Virus record (IMG/VR): IMGVR_UViG_3300031966_000120
Span: 1 to 23,471 of that record
Length of the DNA stretch: 23,471 nt
Source: a virus
Strand: one strand, 5' to 3'
Both the position numbers and the translations under genes were made by a program. Positions 3,318 to 22,826 of this stretch are shown here, piece by piece. Under the pieces are notes generated by a model. The model had not been told where the DNA came from, searched no databases, and saw only the letters and a program-made list of their open reading frames with translations. Every line of letters begins with the position of its first letter. Within the stretch, counting starts at the first letter, position 1.

Positions 3318-3989
3318 ATGAGCGCAAAGAGTACTGCGCCGGTCTTAACCAACGATCAGATTCGCGGTATGATGCTCCAGTACTTCTACGACCGCAATAA
3401 GAACGCTACCAGCACAACGGGCAAGCGGGGGTCAGCGGTCAAAATAAGCGATATTAAATCAGAGCTCAAGACCATGCACGGCCTGACGCAGCAGCAGGTT
3501 CAGAGCAACCTGACCTATCTGATCAGCCAGGGCTGGGTGGAAGAGAAGTCCGAGGAAAAGCAAGTCACGGCCAGAGGCGGCACGGTAATTCCTTCCGTTA
3601 CGAAGTATTACCAGATAACCGCTGCCGGAATCGACAAGATCGAGGGGCCCAGCGAATACACGATGCCCCGGTTCCACGGCATCAATATCAACGCCACCGG
3701 TCAGAACATCATAACGCTGGGCGACGGCAACCAGGTCAATGCCCAATTTGGCGATTTGGGCAGCGCGCTTGTGGAGTTGCGCGAAGCCGTTACGCGGTCG
3801 GACGCCGATGAATCGCAGAAGCTTCAGATTGTTGCGGACATCGACACTATACAATCTCAGCTCGCGAAGCCTGAGCCAAATAGGTCGATCATCTCCGCAG
3901 CTTGGGAGACTGTAAAAGCCGCAGCGGCCCTAAACGACTGCGCGGCGCTAGTTGATAAGGCAACGGGATTGATCAGGAGATTTCTATGA
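3318..3989 (+). CDS. Winged-helix accessory protein of the restriction operon
   Basis: I do not recognise a named family. The 223-residue protein starts with a likely winged-helix DNA-binding domain at about 10-110 (TNDQIRGMMLQYFYD, a recognition-helix region QVQSNLTYLISQGWVEE, then a wing and KYYQITAAGIDKIEG). A beta-rich linker follows at about 118-143 (ININATGQNIITLGDGNQVN). This Gly/Asn repeat type is seen in several bacterial conflict-related proteins just before an effector or oligomerisation region. The C-terminal 75 residues are helical (ALVELREAVTRSD, then VKAAAALNDC). A perfect GGAGGTGA precedes the ATG. It sits between hsdM and the second hsdS and shares an ATGA overlap with the next small gene. 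A regulator of the operon or a sensor of restriction activity are both reasonable, unproven guesses. Confidence 0.75.
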   Translation: MSAKSTAPVLTNDQIRGMMLQYFYDRNKNATSTTGKRGSAVKISDIKSELKTMHGLTQQQVQSNLTYLISQGWVEEKSEEKQVTARGGTVIPSVTKYYQITAAGIDKIEGPSEYTMPRFHGININATGQNIITLGDGNQVNAQFGDLGSALVELREAVTRSDADESQKLQIVADIDTIQSQLAKPEPNRSIISAAWETVKAAAALNDCAALVDKATGLIRRFL

Positions 3990-4108
3990 AGGCCGTGCAG
4001 CGGCGAGTTTGTTGTGAATATCAGGTGAGGACGGAGGTTATCGAGGCGCTTATGAATAGGAAGACAGTTCACCGCCTAGTTGCGAGAGACGGCGGAGGCA
4101 GATCATGA
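3986..4108 (+). CDS. Small 40-residue gene coupled at both ends to its neighbours
   Basis: A 40-codon frame begins at ATG 3986-3988, overlapping the TGA (3987-3989) of the winged-helix gene. It ends at TGA 4106-4108, overlapping the ATG (4105-4107) of hsdS. Both junctions are the classic ATGA translational-coupling overlap. AGGAGA at 3975-3980 is well placed upstream of its start. The peptide is basic (MKAVQRRVCCEY at the start, ARDGGGRS at the end), with a Cys-Cys pair and a predicted central helix (TEVIEALMNRKTVHRLV). I recognise no family. It could be a small partner of the HsdS/HsdM complex, or a translated leader that couples hsdS translation to the upstream gene. Confidence 0.65.
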   Translation: MKAVQRRVCCEYQVRTEVIEALMNRKTVHRLVARDGGGRS

Positions 4109-5289: not shown

Positions 5290-5294
5290 TCAAA

Positions 5295-8200
5295 ATGCCC
5301 GAAATACCGCTTATGAAGGAAGACCACATATCGCAAATCCCCGCCCTGCAGCTCCTGCAGAACCTCGGGTATACCTACCTCACGCCCCAAGAGGCGCTCG
5401 ACCTTCGCGGCGGCAGAACTGGCGGCGTTATCCTCGACGGCATACTGGAAGAGCAGCTCCGCAGAATAAACCGCATCACCTATAGGGGCAACGAGTATCC
5501 TTTCAGCGAGGGCAACATCCTGAGCGCCACCCAATCGCTCAAGGACGTCACCTATGACGGCCTTATCCGAACGAACGAGCGCTTGTATGACCTCCTTTGC
5601 CTGGGCAAAAGCCTGCAGCAGTCCATCAGCGGAGACGTGAAAAGCTTCACGCTCAACTACATAGATTGGGAGCACCCCGAAAACAACGTCTACCACGTCA
5701 CAGAGGAGTTCAGCGTCGAACGCGCCGGATCGAGGCAGTGTTACACCCCGGACATAGTATTGTTCGTGAACGGCATTCCGTTCGTGGTAATCGAGTGTAA
5801 GCGGCCGGACGCCGGAAGCCCGAACAACCCGCCCATAGACCAGGCCATATCCCAGCAGATCCGCAACCAGAAAGAAGACGGCATCCCGCACCTGTTCTTC
5901 TACTCCCAGTTGCTGCTGGCCATATCCAAGAACGAGGCGAAATACGCCACCACGGGGACGGCGGCGAAGTTCTGGGCGGTCTGGAAAGAAGAAAACATCG
6001 ACGCCGATGTGGGAAGTCTGATCAATACTCCTCTGACCCAGGAGCAGAAGAACAAGCTGTTTGCAAACAGGTTCCGTTATGTTCGCGACTACTTCGACGC
6101 TCTTGAAGCCGAAGGCGGACGCGAGATAAAGGCGCAGGACCGCGCTATTTATGCCCTGTGCCGACCTGACAGACTGTTGGAGCTTACCTACCGTTTCATT
6201 GTCTACGATGCAGGCGAAAAGAAGATCGCGCGCTATCAGCAATACTTCACAGTGAAGAGCATAATGCAGCGGATCACATGCATTGACGAGACCGGCAGGC
6301 GTAAAGGCGGCGTCGTCTGGCACACTCAGGGCAGCGGCAAATCGCTTACCATGGTAATGCTTGCGAAGTCCATTGCCCTGGAACCGAGCATCGGCAATTA
6401 TAAGATCGTGCTCGTCACCGACCGCGTGGACCTCGACGACCAAATCTACACCACATTCCGCCATTGCGGCAAGGACGTTGAGCAAGCGCGCACCGGAAGG
6501 CACCTGGTGCAGCTTCTGAAAAGCCCTAGGCAGCGCATCATTACGACGGTCATCGACAAGTTTGAAGCCGCGGTATCCGCCAAGGACGTGCGCATCGACG
6601 ATCCCAACATATTCGTCCTTGTAGACGAGAGCCACCGCGGGCAATACGGCCCCATGAACGCCAAAATGCAAAAGACGATGCCGCAAGCCTGCTATATCGG
6701 GTTCACCGGCACACCGATTATGCAAAAGCACAAGAACACGGTAGAAAAGTTCGGAGGCATCATTCCTCCTGCCTATACGATGCGGGACGCCGTGGAGGAC
6801 AAGGCTGTCGTGCCGCTCCTGTATGAAGGCCGACACGTGCACCAGATGGTGTTCAAGGAGCCGATTGACACCTGGTTTGACAAGATAACCGCATCACTCT
6901 CGAAAGAACAGGTCGCCGACCTCAAACGCAAGTATTCCACGACCGACCAGTTGAACAAGGCGGAGCAAAAGGTTATGAGGATCGCATGGGACGTGAGCGA
7001 ACACTTCCGCGACAACTGGAAGGGCACGGGTTTCAAGGGGCAATTGGTGACTCCGGACAAGCCCACCGCCCTGCTCTATAAGAAATATCTCGACGAGTTC
7101 GGAATGGTTACCAGCGAGGTGCTTATATCGGGGCCGAACGAACAAGAAGGGGAAACCAACATCTACGATGAGAACACTGACGAGGTCAAACGCTTCTGGA
7201 AAGCTATGATGGAGCGGTACGGAAGCGAGAAGGACTACAACCGCCAAGTCATCAACGCCTTCAAGTTCGATGAGAACCCGGAAATCATCATAGTCGTAAG
7301 CAAGCTGCTCACCGGTTTCGACGCGCCGAAGAACACCGTCCTTTACCTGGCAAAGAGAATGGAGGGGCATACGTTGCTTCAAGCCATCGCCAGAGTCAAC
7401 CGCCTGCACGACGGGAAGGATTTCGGATACATACTTGACTACTGGGGCGTGCTCGAGGATCTTGACCAGGCGCTTAGCTTTTATGACAAGCTGTCTGAGT
7501 ACGATGGGGAGGACCTGCAAACGCTTGTCGTCAGCAACATCGAGACGGAAGTTGAGAAGCTGCCGCAGAGACACTCCGACGTGTGGGATCTGTTCAAGGA
7601 GATCAAGAACAGCAGAGATGAGGAACAATACGAGCTACTGCTGGCAAGTGAAGACCTCCGCGCCAAGTTCTACCAGCGATTTTCCGAGTTCGCGCGCACG
7701 CTTGCAATTGCGCTTTCGACGGTGAAGTTTGTCTCAGAAACGCCTGAAGAGAAGATCGAACTCTATAAGAACGACCGGGATTTCTTTGCCAAGCTGCGGG
7801 TTAGTGTCCAGCGGCGCTATGCCGAGGTGGTGGATTTCCGAGATTATCAACCCCAGATCAAGAAGCTGATAGACACCTATGTGGGCACGGGCGAGATCGA
7901 GAAACTCAACGAACCTGTTAACATATTCGACACCGAGGCTTTTGAGGAGGAAGTCGCAAGACAGACGGGCGACGCTTCCAAAGCTGATCTCATAGCGCAC
8001 AACACAAGCCGTTTCATCAGCGAGCGGATGCAGGAAGACCCCGTGTTTTATAAGAGGTTCTCGCAGCTTCTGGAGGAAACAATTCGGGCGTTCCACCAAG
8101 AACGGCTTATTCAGGCCAGCGAATACTTGAAACGTGTAAGAGAAATAATGAACTTCGTAGTCACGCGGACGGGCGACGATGTGCCCGATGTATTACGCGA

Positions 8201-8498
8201 TAGAGACGTTGCCAAGGCGTTCTTCGGCTGTATTAAGGAAGTGATGGAGAAGAAACAGGTCACTGGCGACCAATCGCACGAGCTATGGGCTGAAGCGGCT
8301 ACCGGCATAGAAGACATAATCCATAACTTGAAGATCGTGAATTGGGAGACCAACACCGACGTGCAAAACCAGATGCGCAACGCCATAGATGACTATCTCC
8401 TTGATCTGAAAAACAAACACGGATTGGACATTTCGTTCGACGAAGTGGATGTCATCATGGAGCAGTGTTTGGAGATTGCAAAGCTGAGGATACGTTAG
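5295..8498 (+). CDS. hsdR: Type I restriction endonuclease / translocase subunit
   Basis: HsdR pumps DNA with an ATP-driven SF2 motor and cuts it when translocation stalls. From ATG 5295 it has 1067 residues, normal for the family. The N-terminal PD-(D/E)XK nuclease is visible as PDIVLF with D153 and the ECK triad E167-K169. The motor follows: Walker A GSGKS at 346-350, DESH at 444-447 and a TGTP motif about 30 residues later. A GFDAP motif and QAIARVNR belong to the second RecA-like domain. The helical C-terminus would bind HsdM/HsdS. I prefer ATG 5295 because GAGGTGA (5283-5289) is 5 nt upstream. A GTG at 5286 overlapping the hsdS stop would add three residues and cannot be excluded. All key residues are present, so the enzyme looks active. 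Confidence 0.97.
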   Translation: MPEIPLMKEDHISQIPALQLLQNLGYTYLTPQEALDLRGGRTGGVILDGILEEQLRRINRITYRGNEYPFSEGNILSATQSLKDVTYDGLIRTNERLYDLLCLGKSLQQSISGDVKSFTLNYIDWEHPENNVYHVTEEFSVERAGSRQCYTPDIVLFVNGIPFVVIECKRPDAGSPNNPPIDQAISQQIRNQKEDGIPHLFFYSQLLLAISKNEAKYATTGTAAKFWAVWKEENIDADVGSLINTPLTQEQKNKLFANRFRYVRDYFDALEAEGGREIKAQDRAIYALCRPDRLLELTYRFIVYDAGEKKIARYQQYFTVKSIMQRITCIDETGRRKGGVVWHTQGSGKSLTMVMLAKSIALEPSIGNYKIVLVTDRVDLDDQIYTTFRHCGKDVEQARTGRHLVQLLKSPRQRIITTVIDKFEAAVSAKDVRIDDPNIFVLVDESHRGQYGPMNAKMQKTMPQACYIGFTGTPIMQKHKNTVEKFGGIIPPAYTMRDAVEDKAVVPLLYEGRHVHQMVFKEPIDTWFDKITASLSKEQVADLKRKYSTTDQLNKAEQKVMRIAWDVSEHFRDNWKGTGFKGQLVTPDKPTALLYKKYLDEFGMVTSEVLISGPNEQEGETNIYDENTDEVKRFWKAMMERYGSEKDYNRQVINAFKFDENPEIIIVVSKLLTGFDAPKNTVLYLAKRMEGHTLLQAIARVNRLHDGKDFGYILDYWGVLEDLDQALSFYDKLSEYDGEDLQTLVVSNIETEVEKLPQRHSDVWDLFKEIKNSRDEEQYELLLASEDLRAKFYQRFSEFARTLAIALSTVKFVSETPEEKIELYKNDRDFFAKLRVSVQRRYAEVVDFRDYQPQIKKLIDTYVGTGEIEKLNEPVNIFDTEAFEEEVARQTGDASKADLIAHNTSRFISERMQEDPVFYKRFSQLLEETIRAFHQERLIQASEYLKRVREIMNFVVTRTGDDVPDVLRDRDVAKAFFGCIKEVMEKKQVTGDQSHELWAEAATGIEDIIHNLKIVNWETNTDVQNQMRNAIDDYLLDLKNKHGLDISFDEVDVIMEQCLEIAKLRIR

Positions 8499-12266: not shown

Positions 12267-12307
12267 CAGTTGATATTTACTGGCGGACATTTGAGTGTGC
12301 CGGGAAT
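12267..12307 (-). promoter_or_regulatory. Two-box promoter-like module, copy 1 (recombinase operon)
   Basis: Read on the minus strand, the module is ATTCCCGGCA (12307-12298), 11 bp, then CCGCCAGTAAATATCAACTG (12286-12267). The same two boxes with the same 11-bp gap occur at 15919-15959 on the plus strand. It begins right after the TAG of the sigma-factor gene and ends 43 bp before the next ATG. CCCGGCA and TAAATA would be 18 bp apart, fitting a -35/-10 pair for a non-standard sigma factor. Use as a promoter is inferred; the repetition is seen directly. Confidence 0.7.
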
Positions 12308-12895
12308 CTACACATACTCGTCCAGTCCGTGTTCCAAGAACAGGAAAGCGATCCGGCGCCTGAGCTCGTCGATCTTGTGCCTGGAAACTCCGTCCTCGCG
12401 GGCTATGTCCACAATCGTGCGCTTCTGCAGCCCCGCGCACAGGGTCTGTAAATCAGCGGGGAGAAGAGATGCCGCGCATTGCACATCGATGCGCATCTCC
12501 ACTCCGTCAAGCGCCTTTCGGTTCAAGCGGCCTGTGACCATCAGATACTCTTCGGAGTCGATGGCCTCCCCTCGCGACACTCTGTCACCCGTCTCGGTCT
12601 CGATTGTTTCGTCGAGGGAGAAGTCGTGCTGTCGGAAGTCGAACTGACTCGTTGTCCTCGCGGCAACCATCGTCCGAATCTTGTTGTCGAGCACGGTGTT
12701 GATGAATGTCTTCAATGTTCCCTTGCGTGGGTTATACTTGGGAAGCTGCTGGCGAAGGTGAAGCGATAGGTCCTGCTCGATGTCTTCCTTGTCGCTTCTT
12801 GTGTAGCCCGCCTGCCCTATCAATCGGCGTGTTTTGTAGCGGATGAGGTTGACGGCATAGTCGTCGAGTCCCTCAAATGGATTGGTATCAAACAT
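12308..12895 (-). CDS. Sigma-70 family RNA polymerase sigma factor
   Basis: This 195-residue protein looks like a small two-domain sigma factor that directs RNA polymerase to element promoters. Region 2 is at about 10-75 (YAVNLIRYKTRRLIGQAG, DKEDIEQDLSLHLRQQLPKYNPRKGTLKTFINTVLDNKI). Region 4 with an HTH is at about 155-185 (TIVDIAREDGVSRHKIDELRRRIAF). A variable linker with acidic residues (DETIETETGD) lies between them. The ATG at 12895 has AGGAGG a few bases upstream; the open frame continues upstream to 13033, but that part is not protein-like. It is the second gene of the minus-strand operon. The matched promoter-like modules at 12267 and 15919 are candidates for its targets. Its divergence from classical ECF factors is notable. 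Confidence 0.82.
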   Translation of the reverse strand: MFDTNPFEGLDDYAVNLIRYKTRRLIGQAGYTRSDKEDIEQDLSLHLRQQLPKYNPRKGTLKTFINTVLDNKIRTMVAARTTSQFDFRQHDFSLDETIETETGDRVSRGEAIDSEEYLMVTGRLNRKALDGVEMRIDVQCAASLLPADLQTLCAGLQKRTIVDIAREDGVSRHKIDELRRRIAFLFLEHGLDEYV

Positions 12896-12962
12896 TGTCT
12901 CCTCCTGGGCCGGGAGGAGATCGTGGGGGTGCCGTCTACCAAGGCGCCACATCTGATGACAA

Positions 12963-13021
12963 CAGGCGGAGGCATTGCAATGCCGCTTTCGGTAAGCGAC
13001 ACCCACAACAACCTCCGCCTG
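12963..13021. repeat. Inverted repeat and palindrome upstream of the sigma-factor gene
   Basis: CAGGCGGAGG (12963-12972) and CCTCCGCCTG (13012-13021) are perfect 10-bp inverted repeats. Inside them lies a perfect 14-bp palindrome, GGCATTGCAATGCC (12971-12984). They occupy the 168-bp gap between the sigma gene start and the end of the gene before it, where no reading frame looks real. They could form a transcript hairpin or be operator sites that tune sigma-factor expression. Confidence 0.55.
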
Positions 13022-13063
13022 GCGGTCAGTCATTCTCGGTGTATGAGTATTCGTTTGTCTGGA

Positions 13064-13375
13064 TCAGATAAGCGCTTTGCGCTTGATGGTCATCTTGAAC
13101 GGGAGACCATCGCGCACGTGAAGGCACTCGACGGTGCCGTTGCCCAGAGTGCGGAATCGCTCAAAGAGCGTCCGAACCTGGGGTCTTCTCGCATAGTCCT
13201 GTTCTGAGAGCACCTCCTTTGTCGGCTCAGTGCCCGAGAGCTTGAACTCGATGCTAACGCTGGTGTTGCTGTCGAGCACTGGTTGCCCTGCGACGAGCTT
13301 GATATTGGATATGCAGCCGAACTGCGTCTGGCGAATCAGCCGGACCAGTTCGCGCTCGGGGTTTGTCATGGACAT
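13064..13375 (-). CDS. Conserved-looking hypothetical protein, first in the sigma operon
   Basis: This is a 103-residue protein without a recognised domain. It starts with ERELVRLIRQTQFGCISNIKLVAGQPVLD, contains a beta strand with SVSIEFKLSG, and ends with FERFRTLGNGTVECLHVRDGLPFKMTIKR, suggesting a compact alpha/beta fold. I recall similar short proteins near DUF2924 and recombinase genes in other elements, but cannot verify this. GGAGGG lies about 11 nt upstream of ATG 13375, somewhat far; a second in-frame ATG at 13369 is possible. The four 11-bp repeats at 13468-13511 lie in its upstream region. It could be a DNA-binding partner of the regulatory circuit, but the sequence does not show it. 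Confidence 0.6.
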   Translation of the reverse strand: MSMTNPERELVRLIRQTQFGCISNIKLVAGQPVLDSNTSVSIEFKLSGTEPTKEVLSEQDYARRPQVRTLFERFRTLGNGTVECLHVRDGLPFKMTIKRKALI

Positions 13376-13467
13376 GATGTTCTATCCCTCCAGAGAATCT
13401 GGGAACGGATAGTTGGCCAACACATCGTTCTGGTGAGTATATGGTAGCCTGTGCGGAATATGCCGAA

Positions 13468-13511
13468 GGTGCAATCCGGGTGCATTTCGGGTGCAATTGG
13501 GATGCAAGAAC
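13468..13511. repeat. Four tandem 11-bp direct repeats
   Basis: Units start at 13468, 13479, 13490 and 13501: GGTGCAATCCG, GGTGCATTTCG, GGTGCAATTGG and GATGCAAGAAC. The GNTGCA core recurs at exactly 11 bp, about one helical turn, so a bound protein would sit on one face of the DNA. They lie between a terminator and the 13375 gene start, about 95 bp upstream of that gene on the minus strand. Binding sites of an activator or repressor of this operon are likely. Confidence 0.7.
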
Positions 13512-13556
13512 AGACCAAAACAAAACTAGCCCGGTACCGCGTGGGTACTGGGCTAG
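13512..13556 (-). terminator. Intrinsic terminator of the 15736-13582 operon
   Basis: CTAGCCCGGTACC (13526-13538) and GGTACTGGGCTAG (13544-13556) form a 13-bp stem with one mismatch or wobble and a 5-nt loop. Read on the minus strand, the stem is followed by TTTTGTTTTGG. It lies 26 bp after the stop of the preceding minus-strand gene, so it separates that operon from the sigma/recombinase operon. Confidence 0.8.
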
Positions 13557-13581
13557 CTGTGCGAGTAATGCCGGGCTGAAA

Positions 13582-14586
13582 TCAGATGTTGAGTCGGTAG
13601 TAGCCGGGCTTGGTGGAAGCTATCAAGACGGATCGCGAGTCTCCACTCCGAAATATCTGGCTCATCTTGGCCGGTGGCTCAAAACCCTTCTCGTCGCCGT
13701 GCAGATCCGCGATCTCGCAGGATATGACAGCACAGTGCACGTCGGGCTGTCCGCGTAGATGGGCTTGATGAAGTATGTTGGCTACGTCGGCCTGCAGGGG
13801 AGTAAGGTGCGGAAGCTGCTTGCCACGCAAGATGATGGTGCGATAGTTGTTGCTCGGCTCGAACACAGATTCGCAGTGCGCGTCGCGAACAGCCTGTGCC
13901 ATTATCAGTCCACGGACCTTGCCACCAAAATCCGTCACGAGTTGGGCAAGCCTCTTATCAACTTGGATCCTGCCATTGTCGACCGTGAACAGATCGGCAA
14001 GGCAGATCATCAGGCGCGAGTCGCGATACCACGGGTTCGGCGGGTCGATGTAGAGCTCAAAAGGACTTGGCGTGAACAGGATGAACGGATCGTACGAGCC
14101 GATAAGCAGATGAAGAAAGCTCTCGCGATTGAGGCATCCGCAGCCGGTCATAGCGAAGTACGCCGGGGTAAGAGTGCCTCCGGTATCAAGGTTCGCAAAA
14201 TGGACTGGCTCGTGGATGTCGACACGGAGCGGCTCGATAAGCGCGAGCCCAGCGGCCCGCGCGATTCCGCCGAGTATCTTTGCATGATCCATTTCATAGA
14301 CGGTCAGATCGTCTCTGGTGACAGGGATGGGATCGCACTCTCCATCGTCGCACGTGCAGATCGCCACCATACTGCCATCCTTGTGAATTACCACCTCATG
14401 CGAGCAAGCACACCAGTGTTCGTGGGTGCAGGGATAGCTCAGAGACGCCTTGTCGGTTGGCACAATAAGCCTTCTCGCGGCCGCAAGCACATCGGCATCG
14501 CGGATCTCTTTCTCCCATTCCCTAATCACAGCGGCTGAGGCGAGCTTCTCACATGCCCACCAGAAACTCTTCAGACTCTTGGCCAT
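13582..14586 (-). CDS. Unknown protein with an N-terminal Cys/His cluster
   Basis: I do not recognise this 334-residue protein. Near residues 55-95 it has a possible zinc site (CTHEHWCACSHEVV, then CTCDDGECDPIPV). A segment with NPWYRDSRLMICLADLF lies in the middle, and a probable helix with LTPLQADVANILHQAHLRGQPDVH, of winged-helix character, lies near residue 270. I chose ATG 14586 because GAGGAAG precedes it well; ATG 14601 would add five residues. Its start overlaps the end of the upstream gene by 38 bp, so the pair is co-expressed. The zinc cluster and the HTH-like end suggest a nucleic-acid-binding role. I see no catalytic motif. Confidence 0.75.
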   Translation of the reverse strand: MAKSLKSFWWACEKLASAAVIREWEKEIRDADVLAAARRLIVPTDKASLSYPCTHEHWCACSHEVVIHKDGSMVAICTCDDGECDPIPVTRDDLTVYEMDHAKILGGIARAAGLALIEPLRVDIHEPVHFANLDTGGTLTPAYFAMTGCGCLNRESFLHLLIGSYDPFILFTPSPFELYIDPPNPWYRDSRLMICLADLFTVDNGRIQVDKRLAQLVTDFGGKVRGLIMAQAVRDAHCESVFEPSNNYRTIILRGKQLPHLTPLQADVANILHQAHLRGQPDVHCAVISCEIADLHGDEKGFEPPAKMSQIFRSGDSRSVLIASTKPGYYRLNI

Positions 14587-15736
14587 GATCTGCTTCCTCA
14601 TTTCTTACGAAGCTTCGCTTGCGCAACCACGTCTCAACGAGAGTGGCATCCGTGTCCCTGCACAGATCCAGCTTGTTCGGCGGGGTAATCGTGACTGTCC
14701 GCGGCTTGTCTTCGCCTGTGAACTTCACTCTGAACTTCGCTCTGGTGATCGTTTCATTGGGACGAAGCTCAAGATACTCATCCCTGAGCGCGAGGAACAC
14801 ATCTGGGGCCGTATAGGTCGTGAGCATCTTGTAGTGGGCCTTGTGTTTTGCGACACGGATTTCGGTGAGCGTGATCCAGTCTATGCCGTCGATATCGCGC
14901 GTGACCACGCATCTCTCGCCGTCGCGGATGATGGGGCCAAGATCATACTTGTCCACGCCGGGGAAGAATGAGGATTCACCGGTGACCAGCTTACCTATCT
15001 CGCGGCGATACAAATCCTGCTCGCCCTTGTTCTTGGTATGGACCCTCAGCTCACCCAGCGACGGGGTATAGCATGCGACATCGAATGCCTCCGGGCGGTA
15101 GAAGATGCCTTTGGATTTGTAGCCATCCACGGCGCTCTCCCGTTTGTATGCATCGCCGTGTCGGATAAGAAACCATACCTCGTCCTCGCCGGGATAGATA
15201 AACACCCGGGTATTGGCCCCGCGCTTGTGATTCTCAAACCAGGCATCCAGTGCAGCTTCCATCTCCTCGATGCGCTTGTCATCCGGTTCGAGAAACGGCG
15301 CTGGGGTATCCGCCTGGTAGTGCTCGAATGTACGAGAGCGATAGATGTGCTGTTCGGAGTGCGCTTTCTCCAGAGCCTGGTTATCGCAACTCCAGATATG
15401 CATGGCGACATCCATGGGGGTGGACTCGGGTGCAATGTCCAGCCCAAGCTTGGCGGCCAGCTCCAACAGCTTGTTCATGGTCCGATCTGTGCCCATCTCG
15501 TGGACGAAGAAGAGAGCATCGATGAGTGATTCGGGCATGTGCTCATCGGGCTTCATCAGAATCGAGGTGAGCATAAGGTAATCGAAGTCGGAGATCGCGG
15601 TGTCGCACTGGGGCAGGTCGAACCCTTTCGAAGCTATATAATCCGCGTGTGGCTTCAGAAACTCCAGCAGCACCCACGGCGAGACCGACTGCAACACTTT
15701 AGGATTGGCGAATCTTCTTAGACTGTAACTTGGCAA
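14549..15736 (-). CDS. Unknown conserved-looking protein paired with the Cys/His-cluster protein
   Basis: I do not recognise this 395-residue protein. It begins LPSYSLRRFANPKVLQSV (the first codon TTG read as Met). It contains MPESLIDALFFVHEMGTDRTMNKLLELA, FIYPGEDEVWFLIRHGDAYKRE and a C-terminal half with many beta strands (GIDWITLTEIRVAKHKAHYKML, TITRAKFRVKFTGEDK). GGGGGAGG lies 7 nt before TTG 15736, much better than any upstream start, although the frame stays open to 15910. A good promoter lies at 15864-15892, leaving a leader of about 120 nt. From memory, similar unnamed proteins starting with PSYxLRRFxNP occur in mobile elements of other phyla. It could be a regulator or a defence-related factor; that is speculation. 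Confidence 0.75.
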   Translation of the reverse strand: MPSYSLRRFANPKVLQSVSPWVLLEFLKPHADYIASKGFDLPQCDTAISDFDYLMLTSILMKPDEHMPESLIDALFFVHEMGTDRTMNKLLELAAKLGLDIAPESTPMDVAMHIWSCDNQALEKAHSEQHIYRSRTFEHYQADTPAPFLEPDDKRIEEMEAALDAWFENHKRGANTRVFIYPGEDEVWFLIRHGDAYKRESAVDGYKSKGIFYRPEAFDVACYTPSLGELRVHTKNKGEQDLYRREIGKLVTGESSFFPGVDKYDLGPIIRDGERCVVTRDIDGIDWITLTEIRVAKHKAHYKMLTTYTAPDVFLALRDEYLELRPNETITRAKFRVKFTGEDKPRTVTITPPNKLDLCRDTDATLVETWLRKRSFVRNEEADHGQESEEFLVGM

Positions 15737-15752
15737 AACTGTTCCTCCCCCT

Positions 15753-15766
15753 GACCGCCAGCGGTC
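15753..15766. repeat. Hairpin palindrome just before the ribosome-binding site
   Basis: GACCGC and GCGGTC flank a 2-nt centre (14 bp in all), one base before the GGGGGAGG of the 15736 gene on the minus strand. In the mRNA it would form a hairpin touching the ribosome-binding site, so it could affect translation. It is short and may be accidental. Confidence 0.35.
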
Positions 15767-15863
15767 GATGACTGTGCTCCGCATGCCGCTCAAGCGGACG
15801 ACTGTTCGAGGCCACGAGCGAAAGAAAGGCCCCTGGATGCAAGTGGCAGGGGAGCTTGCAACA

Positions 15864-15892
15864 ATTATATCTAACCGAACACTTGTTTGCAA
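15864..15892 (-). promoter_or_regulatory. sigma70-type promoter with an overlapping palindrome
   Basis: On the minus strand TTGCAA (15892-15887) and TATAAT (15869-15864) are 17 bp apart, a good sigma70 promoter for the gene starting at 15736. The -35 box lies inside the perfect 12-bp palindrome TGTTTGCAAACA (15884-15895), a likely operator. A housekeeping promoter here contrasts with the divergent non-standard module at 15919-15959. Confidence 0.7.
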
Positions 15893-15918
15893 ACACGCGT
15901 TTTGGCCCACCTCCAGAA

Positions 15919-15959
15919 ATTCCCGGCAACTGCTCCAAACCGCCAGTAAATATCAACTG
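15919..15959 (+). promoter_or_regulatory. Two-box promoter-like module, copy 2 (replication operon)
   Basis: ATTCCCGGCA (15919-15928), 11 bp, then CCGCCAGTAAATATCAACTG (15940-15959). Both boxes and their spacing are identical to 12267-12307 on the other strand, while the 11 bp between them differ. Each copy points toward the nearest downstream gene (GTG at 16024 here). CCCGGCA and TAAATA are 18 bp apart, fitting a -35/-10 pair. This is the probable promoter of the whole recombination and replication operon. Confidence 0.7.
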
Positions 15960-16023: not shown

Positions 16024-16338
16024 GTGACACGAACGGTTTATAAGTTCACCTTCGACGACAGCGTTGCGATGGATGATGTGGAGCGGATACTCGCATTATC
16101 CACCATTCCCGTGGAGTCGATTCATGGTGAATCCGCGATGCTGGTCGACGGCAGGTTTGCCGTGAACAAGAGGCGCCGCCCCTGCCTTATAGATGCTGAC
16201 TCCCAGCTTGGAAACGACCTCGCGAGAATGTTCACTGGGTTCTTGAACGTTAACTCCAGTGGTTGCTTTCGAGTCGATTTCGCGGAGACCGGAGAGCGGC
16301 TGGGCGATCTGCTCGATCTGTATGGAGCGTTCGTCTGA
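16024..16338 (+). CDS. Small unknown protein, first gene of the replication operon
   Basis: This 104-residue protein starts at GTG 16024, with TGGAGGA a few bases upstream. The frame is open further back, but that part covers the promoter module. The sequence reads TRTVYKFTFDDSVAMDDVERILALSTIPVESIHG at the start and contains RPCLIDADSQLGNDLARMFTGFLN. It looks like a compact alpha/beta protein without a recognised domain. I recall similar short proteins in other recombinase-bearing elements, unverified. The stop overlaps the exonuclease start as TGATG. Being first in the operon, it may be a regulator or a partner of the exonuclease. Confidence 0.65.
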   Translation: MTRTVYKFTFDDSVAMDDVERILALSTIPVESIHGESAMLVDGRFAVNKRRRPCLIDADSQLGNDLARMFTGFLNVNSSGCFRVDFAETGERLGDLLDLYGAFV

Positions 16339-17372
16339 TGGAACGCCTGCTTACCACCTATTCGTTCTGGAACGCCTTCCGCAACTGCCGCAAAGCCTGC
16401 GAGTGGAGGTATCTGAAAGAGCTGGTCCCCATCGGTCGAGATCAGGCCCTCTCCTTCGGGACGCTCATTCACACGTGCCTTGAGGTGTGGCACGGCGGAA
16501 GCGGGCTGGACGCAGTGCTCGACTTCATCGACAGGTCCATGCCAAACAGGACTCAGGATGATTTGCAAAAGTCTGACTGGCATTTGGCCACAGCAATGAT
16601 GAAAGGCTATGCCGCTCGCTACCCGGCTGAGGACTTCGAGATCGTCGCCCTTGAGAAAACGTTCGAAGGCAAGATCATCAATCCCGCGACCGGCGCGTGC
16701 TCCCGGAACTTGACCATTGCAGGCAAGGTCGACGGCATAGTTCGCCGTGGCCGGGAGCACTATATCCTGGAGCACAAGACGGCATCTCAGGTCGACGCCG
16801 ATTATCTTGAGAAGCTCTGGACCGACCTGCAGATCACGCTGTATGCGCACTACATCGAGCAAACACTCGGCATCAAGATCGCCGGCGTCATCTACAACGT
16901 GCTCGTGAAAGCCAAGCTGCAGCAAGGCAATGGCGAGACGGAAGCAGAGTTTGAGACCCGGCGAGCCGAGCTTTTGGCGAAGTCGAAGACCGGCAAGTCG
17001 TCCGCCACGCGAAAGCTGCCTGAATCGGACGAAGCATTCCAGGCCAGGCTTGCGGCCAAGTATGCGGAGCCTGAAATGTTCCATCGTGAGGCGCTCTACA
17101 TCTCGCGCGACCAGTTCGACGCAATGACGAGCGACCTTTGGGAACTTACCCAGCAGTTCCTGGATTGCAGGCGTCGAGACGCATTCTACCGGAACACATC
17201 CTACTGCTTCGCCAACCATCGTACGTGCGCCTACTTCCCGCTGTGCCGCTCAAACGGCAGCGAGAATGTCATCGCCAACTTCTACAAGACAAAGCCGCCG
17301 CACGAGGAGCTGAGAGAAAAACGCATTATCGACAACTATACGGCGGATTCTGGCGAGAAGGTTGAGTGGTGA
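16338..17372 (+). CDS. Cas4/RecB-like exonuclease with a probable iron-sulfur cluster
   Basis: This 344-residue protein is a PD-(D/E)XK nuclease of the RecB/Cas4 type, likely resecting DNA ends for phage recombination. GTLIHTCLEVW near residue 40 is the first conserved helix. The catalytic core is GKVDGIVRR followed by YILEHKTAS (Asp, then Glu-x-Lys). LQITLYAHYIEQTLG is the usual QxxxY-type helix. Cysteines near the start (FRNCRKAC) and near the end (SYCFANHRTC, YFPLC) are placed to hold a 4Fe-4S cluster, as in Cas4 and AddB. The start ATG overlaps the previous stop as TGATG. It stands upstream of a Sak4-like ATPase and an SSB-like protein, making a complete annealing or strand-exchange module. 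No CRISPR genes are nearby, so it is not a CRISPR adaptation Cas4. Confidence 0.88.
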   Translation: MERLLTTYSFWNAFRNCRKACEWRYLKELVPIGRDQALSFGTLIHTCLEVWHGGSGLDAVLDFIDRSMPNRTQDDLQKSDWHLATAMMKGYAARYPAEDFEIVALEKTFEGKIINPATGACSRNLTIAGKVDGIVRRGREHYILEHKTASQVDADYLEKLWTDLQITLYAHYIEQTLGIKIAGVIYNVLVKAKLQQGNGETEAEFETRRAELLAKSKTGKSSATRKLPESDEAFQARLAAKYAEPEMFHREALYISRDQFDAMTSDLWELTQQFLDCRRRDAFYRNTSYCFANHRTCAYFPLCRSNGSENVIANFYKTKPPHEELREKRIIDNYTADSGEKVEW

Positions 17373-18058
17373 GACGTGCGATTGACTACCCTGTAGGATA
17401 CAGAGTTCACGACTTGACGATCATAGGGCCGCGTATCCGCCGATATCGAGGCACTCATGGAAGATACTATTACCCCTGCCAATGCGTCTGCGGCAAGCAA
17501 ATCGAGGTAGCGGCGTATCACATTCCAAGGCAAAAGACCTGTGGATGCTCGCGAAAGAGGGCCAAGACACACGGGCGTCGTTGGTCACCGCTCTACAAGA
17601 CATGGCTCAACATAAAACAGCGCTGTTTCAACCCAAAAGCCGACAAGGGCAAAGGGTATTTCGCCAGGGGCATATCCGTGTGCGCAGAATGGCGTACGGA
17701 CTTCGTGGCTTTTGAGAACTGGGCAACAAACAATGGCTGGGAACCCGGTCTTCAGTTGGATCGGATTGACAATGACGGCCACTACGAACCTGCTAATTGC
17801 CGGTGGGTCAGCAATCAGCAAAACAGTTGCAATCGTCGCGACAGCACGAGGATTACGGCGTTTGGTATAACCCAGACTGCTTCCGAGTGGGAGCTAGACC
17901 CACGCTGCGTTGTCACTCGGAAAGCCCTTGTATACAGGATATTCAAACGTGCGTGGGACATAGAGAGTGCAATCACAACACCCGCAACCCCTGGAATCAA
18001 GAGAGGAGGATACAACCATGCTCCCAGTGAGCAAGACACCGCCGAAATGCGCGCTTAG
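17369..18058 (+). CDS. HNH/AP2-type homing endonuclease-like protein
   Basis: This 229-residue protein has the phage HNH pattern SPLYKTWLNIKQRCFNPK, then FENWATNNGWEPGLQLDRIDNDGHYEPANCRWVSNQQNS. It also has an N-terminal Cys pair region (CQCVCG, then TCGCSRK) that suggests a zinc-bound DNA-recognition domain. A helical C-terminal DNA-binding part follows. Such genes are usually selfish free-standing homing endonucleases. GTG 17369 overlaps the exonuclease stop as GTGA; GTG 17366 is an alternative. Its last 41 bp overlap the start of the Sak4-like gene, which keeps its own ribosome-binding site. It separates the exonuclease from the ATPase and is likely a later insertion. Confidence 0.82.
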   Translation: MRRAIDYPVGYRVHDLTIIGPRIRRYRGTHGRYYYPCQCVCGKQIEVAAYHIPRQKTCGCSRKRAKTHGRRWSPLYKTWLNIKQRCFNPKADKGKGYFARGISVCAEWRTDFVAFENWATNNGWEPGLQLDRIDNDGHYEPANCRWVSNQQNSCNRRDSTRITAFGITQTASEWELDPRCVVTRKALVYRIFKRAWDIESAITTPATPGIKRGGYNHAPSEQDTAEMRA

Positions 18059-18764
18059 CGACTTGACCATACTGGTATACGGCGCTACGAAGATTGGAAA
18101 GAGCAGTATGTGCTCAAAAGCGGAGGAAGCCATTTTCCTGGCTACGGAGCCGGGCCTAAACAGCTTGGAAGTATACCAGATAACCATCAATTCATGGGAC
18201 GACCTGCTGAACGCTGCGGCCGAGCTCGCGGAAGGCAATCACGGGTTCAAAACCATTGTCATAGACACCGTCGACAATGCTTTCAAGCTCTGCGAAGAAT
18301 ACATATGCCGAAAACTGAACATCGCACATCAGGCGGATGCGCCCTATGGAAAAGCGTGGGCCATGGTGGCAGGGGAGTTTCAGCGAGTCATAACGATGCT
18401 GGCGTTCTTGCCCTACGGGTTATACCTCATCTCCCATCCGCAAGACGTGGAGATAGAGACCCGCACCGGCAAGTATACGAAGACCGTGCCCACGCTGCCG
18501 GAGAAGGCCAGAAAGATTGTCCTCGGCCTCGTTGACATGGTTCTCTACTGCGACATCGAAACGGCGGCAGGGCCAGACGGCAAGATCGCTGCTCGCCGGG
18601 TCATGCGCACCAAGCCCAGCCTGAACTACGAGGCGGGCGACCGCACAGGCAGGCTTCCCGAAGTGATCGACCTTGACTACGCCAAGTTCGTCGAGGCGTT
18701 CAACGCCGGAAGAGACTCCGAGAGAACTGACTACACCAAACCCACCAAGGAGACAACCCGATGA
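18018..18764 (+). CDS. Sak4-like phage recombinase ATPase (AAA_24)
   Basis: This 248-residue protein matches the AAA_24 phage nucleotide-binding family, which includes Sak4, a short RadA/RecA-like recombinase that promotes annealing of single strands with an SSB partner. Walker A is YGATKIGKSS near residue 25. Walker B is TIVIDTVDN near residue 80. LYLISHPQDVEIETRTGKYTKTVPTLPEKA is a typical central segment. ATG 18018 has GAGAGGAGGA just upstream. An upstream start at 17967 is unlikely. It overlaps the DUF669 gene as ATGA, and the two genes usually travel together in phages. Confidence 0.88.
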   Translation: MLPVSKTPPKCALSDLTILVYGATKIGKSSMCSKAEEAIFLATEPGLNSLEVYQITINSWDDLLNAAAELAEGNHGFKTIVIDTVDNAFKLCEEYICRKLNIAHQADAPYGKAWAMVAGEFQRVITMLAFLPYGLYLISHPQDVEIETRTGKYTKTVPTLPEKARKIVLGLVDMVLYCDIETAAGPDGKIAARRVMRTKPSLNYEAGDRTGRLPEVIDLDYAKFVEAFNAGRDSERTDYTKPTKETTR

Positions 18765-19228
18765 CCCAGGACTACGACACCTCAGGAATGAGCGATCTCG
18801 ACCTCGCCCAGTTCGACGATGACTTCTCTGAAGCTCCGGTCGAGGAGCGGGAGTTCGAGGAGATACCCGACGGCAAGTATCAGGTGAACGTCGAGAAGGT
18901 CGAGCTTACACGCGCTCAGTCCTCCGGCAATCCGATGCTGAAGTGGACCTTGAAGATTCTCGGCCCTCGGTTCGCCGGGCGTCTGCTCTGGCGCAACAGC
19001 GTGATGGCTTCCAAAGAAAACCTGAAATGGCTGAAGACCGACCTGCACACCTGCGGGCTGGATGTCGAGAAGCTCTCCGAACTGCCATCGAGACTGGGCG
19101 ATCTGCTTGACGTGAAGCTTGAGGTCACCAAGCGCACCAAGGGCGAGAGCGAGAACATCTACTTCAACCGCAGGATAGTAGTTGAGGACCTGGCGGGCAT
19201 TGAAGATGATTCGCTCGCGCCGTTCTAG
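18761..19228 (+). CDS. DUF669 family single-strand DNA-binding-like protein
   Basis: This 155-residue protein matches the DUF669 pattern: an acidic N-terminus (DLAQFDDDFSEAPVEEREFEEIPDGKYQVNVEKVELT), then NPMLKWTLKILGPRFAGRLLWRNSVM and GDLLDVKLEVTKRTKGES at the core of a predicted OB fold, and a short acidic, Phe-ending tail (GIEDDSLAPF). The SSB-like tail is the kind used to recruit partner proteins. It probably coats single-stranded DNA for the Sak4-like ATPase encoded directly upstream (ATGA overlap). Confidence 0.87.
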   Translation: MTQDYDTSGMSDLDLAQFDDDFSEAPVEEREFEEIPDGKYQVNVEKVELTRAQSSGNPMLKWTLKILGPRFAGRLLWRNSVMASKENLKWLKTDLHTCGLDVEKLSELPSRLGDLLDVKLEVTKRTKGESENIYFNRRIVVEDLAGIEDDSLAPF

Positions 19229-19244
19229 ATAGTTTTTCGTCGCC

Positions 19245-19277
19245 GTACCAGGGTTCTGTTGTCAGGGGCCCTGGTAC
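19245..19277. repeat. 9-bp inverted repeat between DUF669 and the HNH gene
   Basis: GTACCAGGG (19245-19253) and CCCTGGTAC (19269-19277) are perfect inverted repeats with a 15-nt loop. No T run follows on the plus strand, so it is not a standard terminator. It lies in the only sizeable gap (89 bp) of this operon and may mark where the HNH gene was inserted, or act as an mRNA-processing hairpin. Confidence 0.55.
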
Positions 19278-19317
19278 AGTGCTTCCACCTGCGGTCCAAG
19301 TGAGGATAACTCCAGCG

Positions 19318-19839
19318 ATGTCACGATTCGATTTGGACGAATGGGTGCGCCGAGAGCAGGGCAAGCACCTGTGCCAGTGCGGCTGCGGGCGGTACATCCT
19401 GGTGAAGAGGCATCACCACGCCAGGGGCGTCCCCCGCTACATCAATGGCCATTACTCAAGGGCACATAATCCGATGCGCGGTATGTGTGGCGCAATGAAT
19501 CCAAACTACCGAGGAGGCTGCTATATCGACAGCCAGGGCTACGTTGTGGTCCTGAATCCCGAGCGTAGCAGCAAAGCTGACAGGTACGCCTACGAGCACA
19601 GACTTGTGATGGAGCGTCATCTCGGCCGCAGACTTGCGCCAAACGAGCAGGTTCACCATAGGAATGGAAGCAAGACGGACAACCGGATTGAGAACCTGGT
19701 AGTCCTCAGTGTTAGCGACCATACAGCGTTGCATGACCAGGACCTCCGCACGCGACTTGGCAACAGACTGTATCTGAAAGCCAAGCGCCGCATCTGTCGC
19801 GGACAGCCATATCGGGAGTTGATGGTTTGTTCCGCATAG
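19318..19839 (+). CDS. HNH_3 homing endonuclease-like protein
   Basis: This 173-residue protein has an N-terminal zinc-like segment (CQCGCGRYILVKRHHHARGVPRYINGHYSR) and the HNH_3 core: YAYEHRLVMERHLGRRLAPNEQVHHRNGSKTDNRIENLVVLSVSDHTALH. The His pair and the Asn before ENL are the expected catalytic and metal residues. ATG 19318 is preceded by a rather distant AGGA; a GTG at 19279 would lie in the hairpin and lacks a site. The stop lies 13 bp inside the next gene. It is a second HNH gene of a different subtype in the same operon. Confidence 0.82.
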   Translation: MSRFDLDEWVRREQGKHLCQCGCGRYILVKRHHHARGVPRYINGHYSRAHNPMRGMCGAMNPNYRGGCYIDSQGYVVVLNPERSSKADRYAYEHRLVMERHLGRRLAPNEQVHHRNGSKTDNRIENLVVLSVSDHTALHDQDLRTRLGNRLYLKAKRRICRGQPYRELMVCSA

Positions 19840-22826
19840 TCGTCGACACCCGTGAGCAGCAGGAATATGCGTTCCGCAGTCCTACTGTTCGGCGAAAGCT
19901 GGACGTCGGTGACTATTCGGTCGACACTTTGGAAGACCGTGTCACCGTCGAGCGGAAGACGGCCGAGGACTTCGTCCATACGGTCATCCGCGACAGAGAC
20001 CGTTTTCGCAAGGAGCTTCTGAAGCTAGCCGAATACGACCGCGCATGTGTAGTGGTGGAAGCCGGGCTGGATGATCTCCTCAGTGGAGCCTATCGTTCCG
20101 GCGCTCATCCAAGTTCCGTCGTGGGGGCCGCGCTCTCGATCATCGTCGACCACGGCATCCCAGTCTACTTCTGCTCCGACCGGCAGTGCGCGCGCCGTAA
20201 GGAAGACGTTTCTGTCGTTGCTGTTGGAGGGAAGCGCTGCATGAACAACATTCCCGAAGAACTCAAGACGCTTCGGCAGTGGGTCTGCTACCGCGTCGAA
20301 GAGCGCAATGGCGTTCCCACCAAGATACCTTACCGAACGGATAAAGCCGGACGCGGCAACGCCAAGACCAACGACCCCGCGACCTGGCACACGTTCGAAG
20401 ATGTTGTTGAGGCGGCATCCAAGCCGAGAAACAGGTTCGACGGTATAGGGTGCGTGTTGTCCGAGTCCGACCCGTATGTGTTCATAGACCTCGATCATGT
20501 CGTGGCTGACGGCGAGATCGAGCCCTGGGCACGGGAGATAATCGGCCGTGTGGACTCATACACCGAGCTTAGCCAGTCGGGAACAGGTGTCCACATCATC
20601 GCGAAAGCAAGTAAGCCGGGTCCTCGGTGCCGGACGCACGGCAGACCCGATTTCGAGATATACGACAATGTCAGGCTCGTGGTGTTCACAGGCAAGCTGT
20701 GGCCGGATGCTCCCGTCGAGATCAATGACGCCCAACAGGCCATAAATGAAATCTACTTCGAGGTCTTCGGCGAGAACCCTCGGAACGTCCCGCCCAAGGA
20801 GACCGCAAAGAATGCCCGGCCCGTCGGGATGAGCGATCCGGTGCTCATTGAGAAAGCTCTCAGCGCATCTAACGGCGAGAAGTTCTCCAGGCTCTGGCAC
20901 GGCAACATTGGTGACTACAACGGTGACGCCAGCGCGGCCGACATGGCGCTCTGCTGCATGCTGGCCTATTGGACGGACAAGGACCCCGTGCGGATCGACA
21001 GGCTGTTTCGCGAGTCTGGCTTGATGAGGGACAAATGGGATGAGCGCCGGGGAGAGCAAACATACGGGCAGATCACGATTGACACCGCCATAGGTTCGAC
21101 CAGCAAGACCTATGCGGGTCAAGCGGACAAACGCCGTGCTAGAGGGCAGTCACGCGGCCACGGAGCTTCCTCCGACGCTGATGCACCCCACGGCCCGGAT
21201 GGCGAGCCTATGAACGATCTCGGCAATGCCCGGCGACTGGTCAAGAAACACGGCGACGCCATTCGGTTCTGCCACGACGCGGGCAAATGGTATTGCTGGG
21301 ATGGTCGCCGATGGGCCAAGGACGAGACCGGCGAGATTGTGCGAAAGGCCAAGTGCGTCGTCGATGATATGCTCAGGCAAGCCGTCGCACTATGTAAGGC
21401 AGCGAAGTCCAAGTCCGACGACGATGCCCTCGAAGCGGCGAAGTCCTTTGAACGCCATGCCGTATCATCCGGCAACCACACGCGCATCAAGGCGATGATC
21501 GCCCAGGCGGAATCGGAGCCGAGCATTGCAATCCTCGCGGCCGATCTCGACGCCGATCATTGGGCGTTCAACTGCGCCAATGGCACCATAGACCTTCGAA
21601 CCGGCAAACTGCGACAGCATAATCGAGCGGACCTGATCTCAAAGATAAGTGAGGTCAACTACGACCCGGATGCACGATGCCCTATGTGGGAGAAGTTCAT
21701 CGGCGAGGTATTCGTAAGCGACGATGAGCTTGTCCGCTTCGTTCATCAGGCGTGCGGCTACACGCTCACCGGAGATACCCGCGAGCAGGTGTTTTTTATC
21801 CTGCACGGTTGCGGATCCAACGGCAAGTCCACGTTTATCACGGTTCTGCGTGACATACTGGGTGACTACGAGACCAAGACAACCACCGACACGCTTGTGG
21901 AGAAGAACAACTCCAGCAACACCAACGATGTAGCGGCATTGCGTGGCGCGCGGCTGGTCAGCGCGATAGAGACCGGCGCCGGAAAACGGCTCGCCGAAGC
22001 CCTGGTCAAGGAGCTGACCGGCCAGGACGCAGTGACCGCCCGATTCCTCTACCAGGAGTTTTTTACGTTCGTGCCGGTCTTCAAGCTCTGGCTTGCCTGT
22101 AACCACGTGCCCGTTATCCAAGGGCAAGAGGAGGCTATCTGGCGGCGGATAAAGCTGATTCCATTTACTGTTCAGTTCCGGGATGCGGATCATCCCACGG
22201 GCCCATACAAGGACAAAGCGTTATCTGAAAAGCTGAAATCCGAACACGAGGGGATTCTGGCGTGGCTTGTTCGCGGATGTTTGGACTGGCAGAATGGCGG
22301 TCTGCCCACGGCAAAGGCAGTGCAGGCCGCTACGGGCAAATTGCAGCAGGATATGGACGTGCTGGGCGGATTCCTCGATGAGTGCTGTGTATTCACTAGG
22401 AACGCGCAGACACCAGCCAAGGATTTGTATTTGGCTTATTGCCAGTGGGCCGAGCGCAACGGTGAAAAACCACTTTCGCAGCGATGGTTCAGCTTGAGAC
22501 TATCTGAACGCGGCACTTGCGAAAACTATCGAACGAGGAGTGCCAGGTATTGGCACGGCATAGGTCTCCGGACTGATCAGACGGACGAGACATCGGAACC
22601 AGAGTCGGAACCGGTGACGCTTGTGACGGATGTGACGCTATTTCCTAAGGAGTCTCATGCGCGCGCGCATGCGCGCGCACGCGCACGTGAAGGGACTTAT
22701 ATAGAACACGTGTCACAAGCGTCACATGCGTCACAGGACCCGAAAACCGAGACTCGCACGGACGGCACTGAATGCGCCGTCCCCAATAGCGATGGCCTCG
22801 ACTGGTCGAATGGGGTGGCGTTTTGA
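19827..22826 (+). CDS. ERCC4 nuclease joined to AEP-like primase and SF3 (D5) helicase
   Basis: This 999-residue frame holds three parts. Residues 3-118 are an ERCC4 nuclease (VVDTREQ at 5-11, GDY at 28-30, ERK at 42-44 with D48), which cuts branched DNA. About 140-310 is a primase/polymerase-like domain (FIDLDHVV metal site, SQSGTGVHII, then DFEIYDNVRLVVFTGK). About 480-860 is a D5-type SF3 helicase: PMWEKFIGEVF, Walker A GCGSNGKST at 661-669, LWLACNHVPVI (sensor 1) and IWRRIKLIPF (arginine finger). The last 100 residues are low-complexity. The start is TTG 19827 with GGGAG upstream, overlapping the HNH stop. Residues 120-138 look frameshifted: see 20187-20244. The protein may therefore be two genes, with the primase/helicase starting at ATG 20241 (861 residues). 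It should prime and unwind the element's DNA at its origin. Confidence 0.88.
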   Translation: MFRIVVDTREQQEYAFRSPTVRRKLDVGDYSVDTLEDRVTVERKTAEDFVHTVIRDRDRFRKELLKLAEYDRACVVVEAGLDDLLSGAYRSGAHPSSVVGAALSIIVDHGIPVYFCSDRQCARRKEDVSVVAVGGKRCMNNIPEELKTLRQWVCYRVEERNGVPTKIPYRTDKAGRGNAKTNDPATWHTFEDVVEAASKPRNRFDGIGCVLSESDPYVFIDLDHVVADGEIEPWAREIIGRVDSYTELSQSGTGVHIIAKASKPGPRCRTHGRPDFEIYDNVRLVVFTGKLWPDAPVEINDAQQAINEIYFEVFGENPRNVPPKETAKNARPVGMSDPVLIEKALSASNGEKFSRLWHGNIGDYNGDASAADMALCCMLAYWTDKDPVRIDRLFRESGLMRDKWDERRGEQTYGQITIDTAIGSTSKTYAGQADKRRARGQSRGHGASSDADAPHGPDGEPMNDLGNARRLVKKHGDAIRFCHDAGKWYCWDGRRWAKDETGEIVRKAKCVVDDMLRQAVALCKAAKSKSDDDALEAAKSFERHAVSSGNHTRIKAMIAQAESEPSIAILAADLDADHWAFNCANGTIDLRTGKLRQHNRADLISKISEVNYDPDARCPMWEKFIGEVFVSDDELVRFVHQACGYTLTGDTREQVFFILHGCGSNGKSTFITVLRDILGDYETKTTTDTLVEKNNSSNTNDVAALRGARLVSAIETGAGKRLAEALVKELTGQDAVTARFLYQEFFTFVPVFKLWLACNHVPVIQGQEEAIWRRIKLIPFTVQFRDADHPTGPYKDKALSEKLKSEHEGILAWLVRGCLDWQNGGLPTAKAVQAATGKLQQDMDVLGGFLDECCVFTRNAQTPAKDLYLAYCQWAERNGEKPLSQRWFSLRLSERGTCENYRTRSARYWHGIGLRTDQTDETSEPESEPVTLVTDVTLFPKESHARAHARARAREGTYIEHVSQASHASQDPKTETRTDGTECAVPNSDGLDWSNGVAF
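20187..20244 (+). other. Frameshift-like junction and hidden start of the primase/helicase
   Basis: The +1 frame from 20197 reads VRKTFLSLLLEGSAA and stops at TGA 20242-20244. This looks like the missing C-terminal helix of an ERCC4 nuclease and ends in an ATGA overlap with ATG 20241 (MNNIPEEL). GGAGGGA at 20226-20232 is a well-placed ribosome-binding site for that ATG. The in-frame reading here (RKEDVSVVAVGGKRC) looks like a shadow. The GCGCGCGCC run at 20188-20196 is a plausible slip point. Confidence 0.6.
22614..22735. repeat. Symmetrical repeat array with a Z-DNA-prone core (origin-like)
   Basis: Three 9-bp units GTGACGCTT, GTGACGGAT, GTGACGCTA (22614-22640) face three inverted units GTCACAAGC, GTCACATGC, GTCACAGGA (22712-22738, cores ending at 22735). 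The outer 14 bases GTGACGCTTGTGAC (22614-22627) and GTCACAAGCGTCAC (22712-22725) are exact reverse complements. Between them lie 34 nt of strictly alternating purine and pyrimidine (22656-22689), including an 18-bp palindrome at 22661-22678, then a short AT-rich stretch. It sits inside the primase/helicase gene, as phage lambda's iterons sit inside O. Use as an origin is inferred. Confidence 0.6.

Follow-up and report, generated by a model that had tools for sequence, protein, structure and literature searches.

How does a virus switch on genes that lie in separate operons? The question is raised by a DNA of 23,471 bases, one whole viral contig (IMG/VR record IMGVR_UViG_3300031966_000120; hereafter the window), in which two identical two-box modules lie on opposite strands, each in front of an operon, one of them directly behind a gene for a putative sigma factor of 195 amino acids (aa). 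What reads these modules, and what do they turn on? A preliminary description of the sequence had proposed that one sigma factor switches on the recombinase genes and the replication operon together. Judging from sequence comparison, the modules are very probably promoters read by the phage's own sigma factor. The proposal stands in this respect but was too narrow: in relatives, the portal, capsid and tail operons have such modules in front of them as well, and the entire programme of the virus thus appears to be under the control of a single virus protein.

Two identical modules in front of two operons

The module consists of ATTCCCGGCA (box 1) and CCGCCAGTAAATATCAACTG (box 2) separated by 11 base pairs (bp). 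It occurs exactly twice in the window with zero mismatches, at 12307-12267 on the minus strand (P1) and at 15919-15959 on the plus strand (P2), and the fillers between the boxes are unlike (CACTCAAATGT vs ACTGCTCCAAA), just as had been described. Further copies at up to three mismatches are found neither elsewhere in the window nor in 100 dinucleotide shuffles, and the count expected from composition for the 30-position pair at fixed spacing is about 7e-10, which bears out the earlier view that a chance origin is very unlikely. Both copies are in sense orientation just upstream of a start codon, 42 nucleotides (nt) for P1 (ATG at 12224) and 64 nt for P2 (GTG at 16024), and box 1 of P1 begins at the base right after the TAG stop codon of the sigma gene.

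The boxes had been said not to match sigma70. This is true of the letters: compared with TTGACA-TATAAT, 6-7 of 12 positions agree, no better than the background mean of 6.6, and a host sigma70 promoter at the modules was rejected on this score. The layout, on the other hand, is that of the sigma70 family, two hexamers with a 17-bp spacer: CCGGCA-17-GTAAAT in the window family and CCGACA-17-GTAAAT in the related element G250. By their sequence, the hexamers have sigma70-family geometry with changed letters, that is, an altered specificity.

How would such a promoter work? Host RNA polymerase carrying the phage sigma factor would read the -35-like TYCCGGCA (hexamer CCGGCA), and the same holoenzyme would read the -10-like GTAAAT inside CCGCCAGTAAATATCAAC across the 17-bp spacer, with a predicted transcription start about 7 nt downstream. 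P2 would turn on the replication operon. P1 would turn on an operon that had been described as one for excision; a recombinase is indeed encoded there, but so is an M15 peptidase of phage endolysin families, and therefore we call it the lysis/excision operon. In the remainder of the phage, off the contig, portal, capsid and tail operons would very likely have modules of their own, as they do in the relatives. A host-type promoter under LexA-type control would start transcription of the leftward genes, in the direction of the sigma gene; DNA damage would therefore release the sigma factor, which in turn would release the lytic programme. For this reading as a whole, namely sigma-cognate promoters, P1 for lysis/excision, P2 for replication and a LexA-type gate upstream, our confidence is high.

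Is the 195-aa protein a sigma factor? Its sigma region 2 is matched by Pfam Sigma70_r2 (5.8e-5, 0.8 bit under the curated cutoff), and it also matches the PHROG 1740 sigma factor (3.4e-7) and, as its PDB profile match, the extracytoplasmic function (ECF) sigma factor SigE (9.6e-6). No region 4 was matched in Pfam; C-terminal helices in the predicted structure, together with sigma fold matches at low TM-scores, may point to a region 4-like part. The model (mean pLDDT 79, pTM 0.44) consists of two helical lobes. Nearly all of the PDB fold matches listed for it are sigma factors, with TM-scores that are low because the placement of the two lobes is unreliable. A search of a phage collection with the protein gave no match.

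Probable promoter sites and sigma factors in related elements

Are the modules maintained where the sigma gene is maintained? The sequences compared are metagenomic contigs and metagenome-assembled genomes (MAGs), some of them incomplete. The 20-mer of box 2 is present in seven other viral contigs, and in four close relatives (G005, G006, G008 and G009; sigma identity 77-88%) both modules stand where they do in the window, with an unchanged gap, so that the search for the motif before the same two operons, which had been proposed earlier, was strongly positive. Compared between the window and these four, box 2 differs at 2% of its positions and box 1 at 4-8%. For the filler the figure is 31-43%, and it reaches 64% over the 40 bp upstream of P2 and 46% over the 30 bp downstream of P1. 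This conservation is not purely a product of the search: G008, which differs by a single substitution in each module copy, had been located through its protein before a motif search reached it. Sigma homologues of 27-46% identity were compared from other viral contigs and from Armatimonadota genomes. Directly behind the stop codon of nearly all of them, or overlapping it, lies a related site with an 11-bp gap, for example CCCGGCG-N11-CCTCCGGTAGGTAATCAG, CCCGACA-N11-CCGCCGGTAAGTGACAAG and TTCCGACA-N11-CTGCCGGTAAATGACCAG. One candidate (L049) matched a loose pattern but fitted poorly, and it was treated as a chance match rather than as a true site. Several relatives have a homologue of the 104-aa replication gene next after the sigma gene, where the window has the lysis/recombinase operon instead; the order sigma gene, promoter, replication operon may therefore be the older one.

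The boxes diverge together with the sigma factor. Box positions differ by 19% on average within one element and by 40% between same-operon promoters of different elements (0 of 20,000 permutations of the element labels), and box distance follows sigma distance with a Mantel r of 0.74 (0/20,000). With one element per clade, 11 divergent elements in all, r is 0.36 (150/20,000); for the filler among divergent elements, it is 0.08 (6,001/20,000). The position-weight model used for scanning, which gave 4 false positives in about 1.6 million shuffled strand-bases at the threshold, was trained on window-family sites and favours sites of such general form, not similarity within an element. As far as the sequences tell, each element has its private promoter consensus, and the co-divergence is most simply read as the mark of one trans-acting reader, common to the sites and changing from element to element. 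We infer that the candidate reader is the sigma factor, which goes together with the sites and belongs to a class of protein that suits this geometry.

Any other regulator encoded on the element would likewise co-diverge with it. Could the modules bind such a repressor or activator while a host sigma factor transcribes? Box 2 contains an imperfect dyad, CAGTNNATATNNACTG, symmetric at 12 of 16 positions, which is in keeping with such binding. However, G008 has one half of the dyad disrupted in each of its copies (ACAG, ACTA), and the dyad is absent in distant sites, whereas the asymmetric part stays; box 2 as the operator of a dimeric repressor was rejected, as the two-fold symmetry is not conserved. 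Moreover, all sites point into their own operon, the hexamers keep the 17-bp spacing, no host-type promoter overlaps the modules, and the sigma gene is the unit most constantly linked to the sites. We regard another regulator as improbable, and promoters for the phage sigma factor as the better explanation.

Sites of this type are not limited to two operons. While the window has two, G009 has three, and G250 and G253 have five each, every further copy being in sense with the operon downstream. The third copy of the G009 prophage lies before a capsid operon encoding a 1297-aa protein (two D12 adenine methylase stretches, a weak head-protease match), a scaffold/decoration-like protein and the major head protein (PHROG, 2e-86). 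The same capsid site is found in other contigs, which also have sites before a tail gene (PHROG, 5e-36), and in G250, G251 and G253 sites precede portal (PHROG, 2e-64 for G250), capsid, tail, replication and lysis/recombinase genes. Could these sites be ordinary promoters of an alternative sigma factor of the host, one of which many prophages there make use? The host core polymerase is needed in any case, and the hosts own other sigma factors (one sigma-like gene was seen). Nevertheless, in the 3.8-megabase (Mb) MAG of G009, box 2 at up to three mismatches occurs three times, all on the prophage contig, and in G250 (3.5 Mb) five of the six exact matches to CCGRCA-N17-GTAAATA fall inside one 43-kilobase stretch holding phage genes. 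Since the consensus is, in addition, private to each element, a host sigma factor as the reader is very improbable. That the module pair is a recent duplication or a chance repeat without function, as the identity of the boxes might suggest, has next to no likelihood: the two copies have nothing in common in their fillers and flanks, four relatives retain both sites with an upstream flank of P2 that is saturated with changes, additional copies stand before other operons, and a duplication artefact was rejected on the divergence of filler and flanks against the conservation of the boxes.

Several observations weigh against recognition by the phage sigma factor and its LexA-type gate. Region 2 of the protein falls just under the Pfam cutoff, and what speaks for a region 4 is the predicted structure, together with weak matches. 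Some of the distant sites, namely those of G301, G302, G240, G158 and G253 (18-bp spacer), were assigned by eye. A sigma gene without boxes, the pattern earlier named as contrary to the idea, is clearly seen in a single distant homologue, that of G243, where no clear site follows the sigma gene and a search for a private motif had no clear result; the site after the G224 sigma gene is doubtful. When the G009 MAG was scanned for a LexA-box pattern, the reversed control had more matches than the pattern itself, and the LexA step draws on a box in two elements and LexA-like genes in four others.

Some details were noticed around the capsid sites. One 1295-aa reading heads the capsid operon at L016:5637-9524; here, too, D12 adenine methylase is matched in two stretches and a head protease weakly. 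By eye, gene pairs resembling the AbiEi/AbiEii toxin-antitoxin are inserted just upstream of the capsid promoter (L016:3479-5238 and L019:9039-10561). Contig G004 is mosaic-like, having sites of the CCCGACA...GGTAAGTAACCAGTG type (L018:5096, 8141 and 11851) and a window-type capsid site (L019:10882); a reading frame at its end, MTGVQTCALPIS, looks like an adapter artefact.

Comparison with known sigma systems

Phage-encoded sigma factors are already known. Salmonella phage 7-11 encodes SaPh711_gp47, which uses bipartite promoters, GTAAtg-(16)-aCTA, before several operons; its early genes use host sigma70, and the distant sigma factor of phiEco32 has another promoter consensus (PMC8948821). The window family resembles it in having a phage-encoded sigma factor with bipartite phage promoters before several operons and a stem-loop just before the sigma gene. 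Phage 7-11, however, is described through its infection cycle, with sigma promoters before late genes only (PMC8948821). In the present, integrated element such sites lie before replication and recombinase genes as well; the hexamers are different, and the control cassette here has LexA features.

SigN (ZpdN), encoded by the Bacillus subtilis plasmid pBS32, is expressed from a LexA-repressed host-type promoter, and it is likewise an element-encoded sigma factor with its regulon on the element and a private consensus (PMC6751061). This trait, promoters confined to the element, is also seen in the G009 MAG. Unlike the phage factor, SigN is plasmid-borne, and its regulon appears to exclude a putative prophage region; it also feeds back on its own promoter (PMC6751061). 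The window has no sigma-type site before the sigma gene. G253 and L117 do have such sites upstream of the sigma gene, which by their sequence suggests positive feedback in these two.

ECF sigma factors share with the 195-aa protein the small size, region 2, possibly a region 4-like part, and bipartite promoters, and they include its best PDB sequence match. Unlike in that group, the cognate site is not upstream of the factor's own gene but after its stop codon, in the window and in nearly all relatives. The module hexamers are, we assume, not the usual ECF -35 element.

Taken with these comparisons, the window family appears to act like both phage 7-11 and SigN, but in integrated phages with sites covering most operon classes, and what is new is a temperate, apparently LexA-linked form of the phage sigma system. 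A literature search combining Armatimonadota, prophage and sigma factor gave one paper, on a genome. The system offers a testable induction circuit for Armatimonadota prophages. The drift series of sigma factors and promoters, from 88% down to about 30% sigma identity, would be useful for recognising the sigma residues that determine promoter specificity and for finding orthogonal sigma-promoter pairs, and the private consensus is a means to mark operons in uncultured phage contigs.

The cassette upstream of the sigma gene and the rest of the window

Table 1. Features of the window discussed in the text.
Feature	Position	Strand	Remarks
P1 box 1, ATTCCCGGCA	12298..12307	-	Proposed -35 hexamer CCGGCA, 12303-12298; exact match; kept in 4 relatives
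P1 box 2, CCGCCAGTAAATATCAACTG	12267..12286	-	Proposed -10 hexamer GTAAAT, 12280-12275; predicted start near 12268; exact match
P2 box 1, ATTCCCGGCA	15919..15928	+	Proposed -35 hexamer CCGGCA, 15923-15928; exact match; kept in 4 relatives
P2 box 2, CCGCCAGTAAATATCAACTG	15940..15959	+	Proposed -10 hexamer GTAAAT, 15946-15951; predicted start near 15958; exact match
Phage-encoded sigma factor, 195 aa	12308..12895	-	Sigma70_r2, PHROG 1740, PDB ECF SigE, fold matches
Operon behind P1	9216..12224	-	70-aa open reading frame (ORF), M15 peptidase (endolysin families), DUF2924, large serine recombinase, helix-turn-helix-like ORF
Operon behind P2 (replication)	16024..22826	+	104-aa ORF, PD-(D/E)XK exonuclease, 230-aa ORF, AAA_24 ATPase, then DUF669, HNH, ERCC4/D5_N 999-aa replication protein
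Host-type promoter, TTGCAA-17-TATAAT	15864..15892	-	Predicted to drive leftward g397-g339 and, via terminator-like stem, towards g103-sigma
LexA-like box, CGAACACTTGTTTG	15876..15889		Between -35 and -10 of host-type promoter
g397 and g339	13582..15736	-	g397 with TTG start at 15736; both unknown proteins; accompany sigma gene in most relatives
Intrinsic-terminator-like stem, then TTTTGTTTT	13526..13556	-	After g339; similar stems in G005, G240, G009, G008
Four tandem 11-bp repeats (WTGCAYCCSRA)	13468..13507	-	Upstream of g103-sigma
g103, small ORF before sigma gene	13064..13375	-	Homologues before sigma gene in G005, G240, G250, G251, G253, L117
Long hairpin, sigma leader	12954..13033	-	z = -3.94; conserved in G005, G253, G240, G250, L117

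How might the sigma gene itself be controlled? The divergent sigma70-like promoter seen earlier was found again (15892-15864), and a strong promoter of this type lies at the corresponding place in G005, G008, G009 and G006. The box within it presumably resembles a LexA box of the Gram-positive type. G005 retains it as CGAACGTTTGTTTG despite diverged flanks, while G009, G008, G006 and G301 have a LexA-like repressor gene at the head of the corresponding cassette instead. In the G009 host, a near-identical box lies 28 nt before a gene reading as uvrA; no such box stands in front of recA or the lexA-like genes of that host, and we therefore speak of control by host LexA as a suggestion.

Of the leftward genes, g397 (14549-15736, minus strand) has no Pfam or PHROG match, and its predicted fold has only weak likeness to RdgC and CENP-N/L. 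The four tandem repeats before g103 are possibly an activator array: in G005, G250, G240, G251 and L117 the corresponding place is likewise occupied by four repeats of 11 bp, which differ in sequence from those of the window. The arms of the leader hairpin, GGCGGAGG...CCTCCGCC with an inner stem GTGTCGC/GCGRCAT, are nearly unchanged where the sigma factors are 38-46% identical, changes being confined near the loop; the hairpin is absent in the LexA-type elements. As a terminator-like stem and repeats precede g103-sigma and the leader carries this hairpin, sigma expression may have a second step. A broader picture can be offered tentatively: in this Armatimonadota prophage family, one sigma factor might run replication, excision, lysis, head and tail, with promoter alphabets that drifted by lineage as natural orthogonal pairs, and might be gated twice, first by LexA release of g397-g339 and then by activation of g103-sigma via the 11-bp repeats and the leader hairpin. 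We think this extended picture possible, though somewhat doubtful.

The gene order of the P1 operon recurs in G009, G250 and G253. The recombinase end of the G009 prophage (Armatimonadetes MAG contig JACPPP010000110.1) adjoins genes reading as aspartyl- and histidyl-tRNA synthetases and a tRNA-Glu gene, and for this reason the left third of the window is, by its sequence, probably host flank or cargo DNA. This part contains a complete tmRNA gene (272-627, plus strand; tag GTTNYALAA) beside a type I restriction-modification set (1157-8498).

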